A stretch of 39,866 nucleotides of DNA from positions 1-39,866 of the forward strand of contig JACPIJ010000046.1 in NCBI GenBank assembly GCA_016188145.1, in the 5' to 3' direction. Origin of the DNA: Candidatus Woesearchaeota archaeon. Lineage in GTDB: Archaea > Nanobdellota > Nanobdellia > Woesearchaeales > UBA10216. Position numbers and translations under genes: made by a program. The notes under the pieces are model-generated. The model saw only the letters and a list, made by a program, of their open reading frames with translations. It had not been told where the DNA came from and ran no database searches. Positions 34 through 35,524 of this stretch are shown piece after piece (the stretch's first letter is position 1; every line of letters begins with the position of its first letter).

Positions 34-63
34 GACAGACCAGAATCAGAACTGGCTTGGCGA

Positions 64-73
64 ATTTATAAAT
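64..73 (-). promoter_or_regulatory. box A for the left-edge gene
   Basis: ATTTATAAAT lies about 30-40 bases before the ATG at 33 on the minus strand. It falls between structured element copy 1 and the gene, so that element is probably not in this gene's leader. Confidence 0.45.
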
Positions 74-82
74 CTTTGCGCA

Positions 83-153
83 AAACCTTTTTGGAACCCA
101 AATCGCTGCTGCGATTGGGCCCAGTCGACCGCTGTCGACTTGGGAAAAGGTTT
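83..153. repeat. structured intergenic element, copy 1
   Basis: An outer stem pairs 83-91 with 145-153 (AAACCTTTT/AAAAGGTTT). Inside it CCCAA at 97-101 can pair with TTGGG at 140-144. Two tetraloop hairpins follow: 102-106 with 111-115, and 124-129 with 134-139. A second copy lies at 30344-30414 in the same orientation. The copies differ at four stem pairs, and all four differences are compensatory (two in the outer stem, one in each hairpin). This copy begins 15 bases after the VIT1 stop on the minus strand. Its function is unknown; it could be a structured 3' region, a small RNA or a palindromic mobile repeat. Confidence 0.75.
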
Positions 154-168
154 ATCAAAAAAAACAGC

Positions 169-894
169 TTAGAACACCAAGCCGCCTGTAAGTAGCTTGC
201 CGATAGCGTAGGTGGCTGCTGCCGCGATTGCGCCGATGACTGCCATCTCCAAGCCGCTCACGAGCCAGTTCTTTTTTGTCACGTAAGTCCTTGCAGCTCC
301 TGCAGCAAACAGAGACACCAGAGTAATTACCACTGCCGCAACAACGCCGCTTTGAGCTGTAACAAACGGGAACAGAAATGGAATTATGGGCAGGACACCA
401 CCGGCTACGGAGGCAAGCCCTATGACAGTTCCAACAACAACCGGCTTGTCAGGCTCTTTCGGGAAGCCGAATTCTTCTGCCCTCATAATGTCAAGCCAGC
501 GCTCCTTTGAGGAAGTTATTATTTTCACAATGTTGTCAAGCTCCCTGCCCTTAAAGCCCTTGGCAGCGTAAAATTCCCTGACCTCCTGCCGCTCCCATTC
601 GGGGAATTTCTCGAGGTGCTCGCGTTCCTTGCGAAGCTCCTGCTCGTAAAACTCGTTCTGGCTCTTGGTTGAAAGGTAGCCGCCAAGCGACATTGAAATG
701 GTCTCGCCAAGGAGGGCAGCTGCTGCGGAAAGCAAGATGACGCCTTTGTTGCCCAAAACGCTGACGCCGGCAACAACCCCAATAACAGTAACTATGCCAT
801 CCTGAATGCCGAAAACAACCTCCCTGATGAGCTTGCCTTCCTTGGAGTGCTCCTCCTGCGCCTCAGGCCTTGGAACCTTCTTCTGAATCTTCAT
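169..894 (-). CDS. VIT1/CCC1-family iron/manganese transporter
   Basis: A 241-residue membrane protein that probably moves Fe2+ or Mn2+ across the cell membrane. The VIT1/CCC1 layout is visible: helix 1 at about 28-48 containing FGIQDGIVT, helix 2 at about 52-75 with the GETISMSLGGYLS signature, a charged cytosolic loop at 80-150 rich in Glu, which in this family binds metal, and three more helices at about 151-175, 184-205 and 214-235. Length is normal for the family. It lies 39 bases downstream of lgt on the same strand and probably shares its transcript. Metal specificity cannot be read from the sequence. Confidence 0.88.
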   Translation of the reverse strand: MKIQKKVPRPEAQEEHSKEGKLIREVVFGIQDGIVTVIGVVAGVSVLGNKGVILLSAAAALLGETISMSLGGYLSTKSQNEFYEQELRKEREHLEKFPEWERQEVREFYAAKGFKGRELDNIVKIITSSKERWLDIMRAEEFGFPKEPDKPVVVGTVIGLASVAGGVLPIIPFLFPFVTAQSGVVAAVVITLVSLFAAGAARTYVTKKNWLVSGLEMAVIGAIAAAATYAIGKLLTGGLVF

Positions 895-29560: not shown

Positions 29561-30325
29561 TTACTTTTCCTCCTTCTTTCTTGCGGCCGCTGCAGACTTC
29601 CTGACATCTTCCATGTGCTTCTCAATCTCAGCCCTTTTCAGCTTCGTAAACCTCTTGTCAGCAAGGGTTATGTACGCGCCAGCTATCCTGTCATAATTAA
29701 AGTCCTTCTCAATGACCTTGTAAAGCGCCCTGAGGCCAAGCTTAATCGCCTCATCAAGGCTGAGGTCTTCCCTGTACTCCTTCTTCAGGAACTCCTCAAT
29801 CTCAGGCTCCCCCTCGCCAATCACAGTCGCCTTGTACTGGAAATAGATGCCCGTTGGGTCGGTCTCAAATAGCTTTGCACCGGTGTCATCAACGCCTGCA
29901 ATTAAGAGAGAAACCCCAAATGGCCTAAGGCCGCCGGACTGGGTGCAGAACTGCTTAAGATTGGAGATGTCCTTGACAACGGTTAACGTGTCAATGGCAG
30001 AATCGTAAGTCACCCTGTGCTGCTGTGCCCTCAGCTGAGCCCTTTCAACCAGAACCCTTGCATCAGACAATATCCCGGAAGCGGTCGCTGCCATGTGGTC
30101 ATCAATCTGCCAAATCTTTTCAACAGCCTCAGCAACAACCAGGCTGTCAACGATGCGCTTGTCAGTAATAAGCACAATCCCGTCCTTGCAAACCATCCCG
30201 ATGGCTGTGCTGCCCTGCCTGACCGTCTTCTTGGCATACTCGACCTGTAACAGCCTTCCGTCAGGGCTGAACATGGTAATGGCTCTGTCGTAACCCATAA
30301 TCTGATGAGGCATAGGCTGCTGCAT
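29561..30325 (-). CDS. psmA: proteasome alpha subunit
   Basis: Forms the outer rings of the 20S proteasome and gates substrate entry. The 254-residue protein starts MQQPMPHQIMGYDRAITMFSP, with the conserved gate YDRAITMFSPDGRLLQVEYA and the KTVRQGSTAIG stretch, then AVEKIWQIDDH and GGLRPFGVSLLIAG. The ATG at 30325 is seven bases after AGGTGA (30338-30333); a longer upstream frame runs into the repeated structured element and is not coding. It is the first gene of the proteasome-exosome operon. The beta subunit is not in the window. Confidence 0.96.
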   Translation of the reverse strand: MQQPMPHQIMGYDRAITMFSPDGRLLQVEYAKKTVRQGSTAIGMVCKDGIVLITDKRIVDSLVVAEAVEKIWQIDDHMAATASGILSDARVLVERAQLRAQQHRVTYDSAIDTLTVVKDISNLKQFCTQSGGLRPFGVSLLIAGVDDTGAKLFETDPTGIYFQYKATVIGEGEPEIEEFLKKEYREDLSLDEAIKLGLRALYKVIEKDFNYDRIAGAYITLADKRFTKLKRAEIEKHMEDVRKSAAAARKKEEK

Positions 30326-30343
30326 CTTCAAATCACCTCTCCA

Positions 30344-30414
30344 TGACCTTTTTGGAACCCAAGTCGCTGTTGCGACTGGGCCCAGTCGGCGCAAGCCGAC
30401 TTGGGAAAAGGTCA
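30344..30414. repeat. structured intergenic element, copy 2
   Basis: The second copy of the element at 83-153, in the same orientation. The outer stem is 30344-30352 with 30406-30414 (TGACCTTTT/AAAAGGTCA), and CCCAA and TTGGG are again present. Hairpin 1 is GTCGC-tgtt-GCGAC and hairpin 2 is GTCGGC-GCAA-GCCGAC with a GNRA loop. It ends four bases from the psmA Shine-Dalgarno region, so it lies in the psmA leader if transcription begins at the box A near 30608-30618. Confidence 0.75.
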
Positions 30415-30607
30415 ATCAAAAACTTATCGCAAGCTGCTATGGCTGCTGCTATGATGCTGCTATTGTTGCTGCTTATTCTCATCGTGCTAATCATTTTTTC
30501 CGCTGGCGTAGTTTTTGGTCGAGCTTTTTCGCCAAAAAGATCGTGCCAGTAAACGAAGAATCTAGCTCAGGTTCTTCTACACTCACAAACAAGAGAATGA
30601 AACGGCA

Positions 30608-34708: not shown

Positions 34709-35524
34709 TTAAGCAATATCCCTCACCTTCCCAAAATGGTAAGTCTCATCACCAGCCACGAAAATGTCAAAGCTTCCAAGATTCTGCTGCATGAACGGGC
34801 TGATGAACCTTTCCTTGAGAATGTCAGTGCCTATGGTTACCTGGTTGAAGGATGGCATTACAATCATTTTCTTTTCTTTCCCGCTGCCTTTCCACCTGCC
34901 AAGGACAAAGCACTTGTAAAGCTCTGTTCTGGCGCCATCTCGAAGCGAGACTGCAGGGTGCTCATTCCCTACAATGATGATTTTTGATTTTTTGAACTCG
35001 CTGCCAGTAGGAACAACATGGCCGTGGCAGATGAACTTGTCATTGATAGCTATGTTCTCGACAACGACGATGTTTCTCTTCCGGGCTATCGGGGAAAGCT
35101 TGACATCGTGGTTGCCCTTCACAAGTATGACCTGCCCGGAATGCTGAAGCAGGAAATCCAGCAGCTTCAAAATGTCGCGCCACTCCTGGTCTGAAATGGA
35201 AGCGAAATCGTGCTTAAGGTCGCCGTTTACGACGATTGCCTCAAATTTTGTTTCTTTGCCGCCACTGCCGCTTTTTCGTTGTTGCAAATCGGCAGCTGCC
35301 GATTGCACGTTCTGCATGGCAGAATTGTGCTGCAGCAAAGAAAAAATCCTCGCAATGCGCTCAATGGTGTCCTTAAACTGAAACCTGGGTATGAAAACGC
35401 CATGCTTAGCCATTGCCTCCTCGTAGCCGAGGTGCACGTCGCCAATTATGAGGATGTTTTCCTTTTTGAGGTAGAGCGCCAAGTCAGCTATTGCGATGCC
35501 AGGCAAAACGTCAACTAAGCCCAT
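34709..35524 (-). CDS. metallophosphoesterase (COG1407-like)
   Basis: Calcineurin-type phosphoesterase, 271 residues, probably acting on a nucleic acid or nucleotide. The dimetal motifs are in order: IIGDVHLG (Asp29, His31), VVNGDLKH (Gly101, Asp102), GNHD (137-140), ICHGH (165-169) and GNEHP (186-190). These match the archaeal ICC-like phosphoesterase group, often found beside Lhr helicase genes. An Lhr gene is indeed about 3.4 kb away in this window on the same strand, separated by the AT-rich island. A low-complexity Gln/Ser/Gly/Lys insertion lies near 70-93. Confidence 0.85.
   Translation of the reverse strand: MGLVDVLPGIAIADLALYLKKENILIIGDVHLGYEEAMAKHGVFIPRFQFKDTIERIARIFSLLQHNSAMQNVQSAAADLQQRKSGSGGKETKFEAIVVNGDLKHDFASISDQEWRDILKLLDFLLQHSGQVILVKGNHDVKLSPIARKRNIVVVENIAINDKFICHGHVVPTGSEFKKSKIIIVGNEHPAVSLRDGARTELYKCFVLGRWKGSGKEKKMIVMPSFNQVTIGTDILKERFISPFMQQNLGSFDIFVAGDETYHFGKVRDIA

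Follow-up and report, generated by a model that had tools for sequence, protein, structure and literature searches.

Dispersed palindromic repeats that lie in frame in unrelated essential genes, as well as between genes, are known from the small genomes of Rickettsia and Wolbachia, where they are called palindromic elements (PMC10969869, PMC3767692). In mitochondria, the double-hairpin elements of Allomyces and others (repetitive hairpin-forming elements) are present in one and absent from another of closely related species and are not removed from transcripts, and a flanking duplication is not reported for those of Allomyces (PMC2800124). Archaea are known to carry miniature inverted-repeat transposable elements (MITEs), namely in Sulfolobus, haloarchaea and others (PMC10969869). 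REPs are described as extragenic sequences of 20-40 bp tagged with GTAG or CGTC (PMC3733652).

Here we analyze a hairpin repeat in a Woesearchaeota genome. The window, that is the whole stretch of 39,866 nucleotides under analysis, is contig C68 of a draft genome of 1.18 Mb in 81 contigs, and the closest named relatives of one of its proteins come from groundwater metagenome-assembled genomes of Candidatus Woesearchaeota. It is very probable that the repeat is a small mobile DNA element of Woesearchaeota, non-autonomous and with the form of a double hairpin. The element is dispersed, has inserted at new sites and keeps its fold by compensatory changes, and it is tolerated between genes, within other hairpin repeats, in introns of tRNAs and, in frame, within genes. 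The repeat is no conventional non-coding RNA, and its coding capacity is a by-product. In the open-licence papers searched we found no description of such an archaeal element.

A double hairpin nested in another hairpin

The initial annotation described two copies of a structured element with a three-stem layout, at 83-153 and 30344-30414, and both the coordinates and the fold are correct (z-scores -4.3 and -7.0 on the plus strand). The minus strand folds about equally well, because the core of the element is dyad-symmetric. Checked base by base, the four compensatory differences between the copies all hold: A83-T153 becomes T30344-A30414, and A84-T152, A102-T115 and A128-T135 each become G-C; the similar plus-strand peptide, FLEPKSLLRLGPV, is likewise there. 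The fold is therefore real, but it is not a single unit. The pairs 83-84/152-153, which account for two of the four changes, belong to an outer hairpin that is found elsewhere without the core, so that the unit consists of two nested elements, a core at 97-144 and a separate hairpin repeat around it.

Core copy 1 (97-144, CCCAAATCG..CGATTGGG / CCCAGTCG..CGACTTGGG) is of the type called A below, scores 63.7 bits with covariance model R1 and shares the covariation of the family. Its outer hairpin spans 83-165 with approximate ends (ACCTTTTT..AAAAGGTTTATCAAAAA), and both lie in the 3' flank of a minus-strand gene at 169-894 whose orthologues in the genus have no element behind them. Core copy 2, also of type A (30358-30405, R1 64.7 bits), lies in the loop of an outer hairpin at 30343-30422, again with approximate ends (TGACCTTTTT..AAAAGGTCAATCAAAAA), just upstream of the start of psmA, the proteasome alpha subunit gene (29561-30325, minus strand, Pfam PF00227 and PF10584). 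A GCTGCTATG-like triplet run adjoins this copy at 30430-30490. The outer hairpin repeat, TTTTTGATTGACCTTTT..AAAAGGTCAT, is a mobile repeat of its own that often holds a core in its loop (L207, L012, L013 and L068, besides the two window sites).

Both copies are real and lie outside genes, yet they are not the only ones in the window. A third copy of a diverged subtype, type B, lies at 35283-35329 (model R2, 41.2 bits, E 1.8e-9), with CA..CA ends and a TG middle on the coding strand. It interrupts in frame a calcineurin-like phosphoesterase gene (34709-35524, minus strand, Pfam PF00149), homologues of which have no insert, and it is an insertion relative to L125, L170 and L172.

The core is a unit of about 48 nt (45-54 nt among Woesearchaeota copies) made of two adjacent hairpins, NNCA-A-stem-TG followed by CA-stem-T-TGNN, and since the first has a bulged A and the second a bulged T, both strands look alike. 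Two copies being too few for a covariation test, we used 78 distinct copies (alignment A2), from which the chance matches with 7-8 errors that the regular-expression survey includes were excluded. In these copies 98.0% of 1324 pair cells hold standard pairs, with both-sided changes at 12 of the 17 pairs. The covariation score reaches 0.261 and that of shuffles 0.078 (0 of 500 as high), and the pairing falls to 38-51% when partners are slid by one base. Covariation is seen in both helices, and also in a broader set with both strands. Double-sided covariation in the core is thus strong, although the compensatory changes could partly come from conversion between the arms rather than from selection. 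A scanner that knows only the plan, with CAA/TG/CA/TTG fixed and both stems required to pair, detects 11 sites in the 1.02 Mb of the relative G006, against zero in five order-1 Markov randomisations.

The covariance models of Rfam release 15 give nothing at gathering score in the window except a tRNA, and no match up to E = 5 for window 60-180. A conserved fold of no known family, RNA or DNA cruciform, as first proposed, is thus borne out by this lack of a match and by overwhelming covariation. The alternative then posed between a fold and a coding origin is settled as well: the fold is the conserved feature, although numerous copies elsewhere are in frame within real genes.

Copy number, distribution and two subtypes

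What had been taken for a two-copy element of one genome is instead a mobile repeat scattered through each genome in tens of copies, whose neighbourhoods are not conserved. BLAST finds 14 copies in the own genome, and others in six of the seven further genomes of the genus and in one genome of another genus. With covariance model R1, all 8 genomes of the genus have matches; counted on both strands, these number 96 for the own genome and reach 123 in G007, the former corresponding to about 48 loci if each is matched on both strands. Across the order, 12 of 353 genomes have matches, 4 of these outside the genus, and among 371 genomes sampled across the phylum relatives occur in another order as well. 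Such relatives in other families and orders are rare and fully diverged: those of G462, G072 and G106 have different stems and keep the plan NNCA-A-stem-TG / CA-stem-T-TGNN with small departures. Certainty is lower for the weaker matches in G390 and G398, and L204, a weak model match, was not convincing and was rejected as a copy. The exact type A pattern has no match in viral contigs, and carriage by viruses was rejected.

Two subtypes can be told apart by ends and middle. Type A (77 sites) has the form CC..GGCC..GG or variants of it, in which each end pairs with the half of the middle that belongs to it. In type B (21 sites) the middle has two nucleotides, and most sites have the reverse complement of these at both ends (CA-TG-CA, CG-CG-CG, TG-CA-TG). 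Six type B copies lie within the stems of other copies. In all six, the host fold is more stable after removal of the element with one dinucleotide than with both, a comparison slightly biased towards the former by the two extra bases that it leaves. Moreover, several relatives have a single copy of the target CA at L054. Taken together, these folds and this site indicate that type B duplicates 2 bp at its target, and the duplication matches the dinucleotide with which the middle of the element pairs.

Insertion into genes, tRNA introns and other repeats

Presence and absence of the element were compared among draft metagenome-assembled genomes, and from these sequences we infer that the element moves. 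Three states are seen upstream of psmA: an outer hairpin whose loop holds the core in the own genome, an outer hairpin without a core at the corresponding position in G007 (L207), and neither of the two in G001, G003 and G006. Together they indicate that window copy 2 arose by insertion of a core into an earlier inserted hairpin. Copy 1 and its outer hairpin are missing as a whole from the orthologous site of G001, G005 and G006, and a different nested set is found there in G007. Another double-hairpin repeat, GCATCGGCAGCAGCCGATGC-GTATCGACCCGAGGTCGATA, is nested within element copies in G007 (L198 1501-1593, and L214).

Within genes, the cleanest case is aspS, where G007 has 48 extra bases between two codons that are absent in G005, with flanks 90% identical, and in five other genomes. 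This type A insertion has no target duplication at all and lies in frame; the residues predicted from it in aspartyl-tRNA synthetase include GLIPKSAATDWAQSQQRLGND. An AlphaFold model of the interrupted synthetase was discarded (mean pLDDT 40.8). Other clean empty sites are in the genes of the CCA-adding enzyme, a PAP2-domain protein, a D-aminoacyl-tRNA deacylase, a DHH phosphoesterase and a glycosyltransferase, and aspS, the CCA-adding enzyme gene and others are interrupted by exactly 16-17 in-frame codons. The frame is kept in 10 of 10 insertions for which an element-free relative has both flanks in one frame at most 40 nt apart, a test that does not presuppose the frame. It is not kept at three further sites, where the flanks are 49-88 bases apart in the subject and which we take for intergenic sites or repeats. 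The 10/10 test replaces an earlier statistic (12/12 vs 39/65, p = 0.004), which involved some circularity, since the coding set had itself been chosen by in-frame homology. At L071 (G004:C29), an ORF of 644 aa looks, on inspection by eye, like an intein-bearing ATPase of the secretion type, and a core copy lies in frame in its intein-like part.

Copies are also found in tRNA introns. The tRNA-Gly(GCC) gene of the own genome (L012 2096-2380, G000:C4) has introns of 107 and 104 nt in the anticodon loop and the T loop, with one core copy in each; after removal of both introns, whose ends are inferred with one base ambiguous, a tRNA of 71 nt is left that ARAGORN reads as tRNA-Gly(gcc). The tRNA-Gly intron of G004 has a copy too, its T loop being uninterrupted, and further copies lie within predicted intron-bearing tRNAs of G004 and G005. 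Because their introns carry copies, such tRNA genes are missed by standard searches. At L013 2157-2560 (G000:C77), tRNA-Asp and tRNA-Lys genes adjoin a core copy, and their apparent T-loop introns are rich in CCTTTTT..AAAAAGG hairpins. For annotation there is thus a double hazard, with 16-17 extra residues in the products of aspS, the CCA-adding enzyme gene and other genes on the one side and overlooked tRNA genes on the other.

Mechanism, rival explanations and known systems

For a non-autonomous mobile double hairpin, the mechanism might be that an enzyme acting in trans recognises the folded element, as a single strand or a cruciform, and then transfers or copies it; the fold would thereby be kept by selection for mobility. 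Lacking stops and usually 48 or 51 nt long, copies in genes may then survive as harmless insertions of 16-17 residues. The difference between types A and B in target duplication counts against this explanation, for a single mechanism has to explain both. As a hypothesis only, a closed circle of 48 nt would have two complementary junctions, GGCC facing GGCC for type A and NN facing its complement for type B, and this would explain why ends and middle match. The bolder proposal, which we put forward as doubtful, is an archaeal mobile element of a new class, whose moving form is a folded molecule of about 48 nt, possibly a closed dumbbell with pairing junctions, type B entering targets that have the dinucleotide closing the dumbbell; if true, the middle of a type B element would predict its target.

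Other explanations have to be weighed against the mobile double hairpin. The strong RNA-like fold with its covariation, and the proximity of several copies to the ends of genes, with one immediately upstream of psmA, would suit a structured non-coding or cis-regulatory RNA that by chance occurs in several copies; however, the dyad symmetry leaves no preferred strand (covariance model scores are equal on both), no neighbourhood is shared, copies lie in coding frames, tRNA introns and other copies, and an Rfam match is absent, which makes such an RNA very improbable. Introns are known to transpose between tRNAs in archaea from work on Thermoproteales, and the copies in introns of tRNA-Gly and in predicted intron-bearing tRNAs of G004 and G005 could accordingly point to a bulge-helix-bulge intron, spliced by the archaeal tRNA endonuclease and spread from tRNAs to mRNAs. 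Yet the copies form only the inner part of tRNA introns of about 100 nt, so the element is not itself the spliced unit, and in-gene copies keep the frame (10/10) and are without stops, neither of which splicing requires; this origin is hardly credible.

Two readings that share mobility differ in the mover. A classical MITE would derive by deletion from a DDE transposon, carry terminal inverted repeats and be moved by the transposase of that transposon, and both the CCCAA..TTGGG ends and the 2-bp duplication of type B agree with that. We consider it unlikely all the same, as type A has no duplication, the end bases are not fixed and vary jointly with the middle of the element, and a longer element with these ends was not seen among the loci read, a non-exhaustive set. 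Bulged hairpins and insertion without duplication resemble the ends of IS200/IS605, as would befit a REP-like element whose mover is a single-strand transposase of the Y1 (HUH) family, of IS200/IS605 or RAYT type. Against it, the Y1 family is not matched in G001, G004, G005 and G007, which have the highest copy numbers after the own genome (drafts 82-92% complete), and the own genome has one weak match; Y1 transposases do not track copy number, and we judge this reading improbable.

The mobile double hairpin can be compared with the systems described above. With archaeal MITEs it has in common that they are short non-autonomous repeats with inverted ends, whereas it conserves a fold rather than a terminal sequence, and no parent transposon was seen for it among the loci read. 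With REP elements and their RAYT transposases it shares bulged hairpins and a high copy number, but this number does not follow Y1 transposases. The plan of two adjacent hairpins as a dispersed repeat unit is that of the mitochondrial double-hairpin elements, which are organellar, while the present one is archaeal and keeps the frame in protein genes; as to target duplication, which is not reported for Allomyces, type A lacks it and type B has one of 2 bp. In-frame insertion into unrelated protein genes, found here at 10 of 10 clean in-gene sites, is common to it and the Rickettsia palindromic elements. The latter are bacterial (Rickettsiales) and 100-150 bp long, whereas the Woesearchaeota element has about 48 nt, is obligately a double hairpin with conserved bulges, and nests also in itself and in tRNA introns.

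Hence it works like the Rickettsia and the mitochondrial elements and is, by length and host, a member of neither. Its divergence across orders with the fold preserved suggests that structure rather than sequence may be what moves, and such a reading would make the spread of hairpin repeats testable by comparison. What emerges is an archaeal counterpart, in a reduced lineage, of the in-frame palindromic selfish DNA of Rickettsia and Wolbachia, with a smaller and better defined unit.
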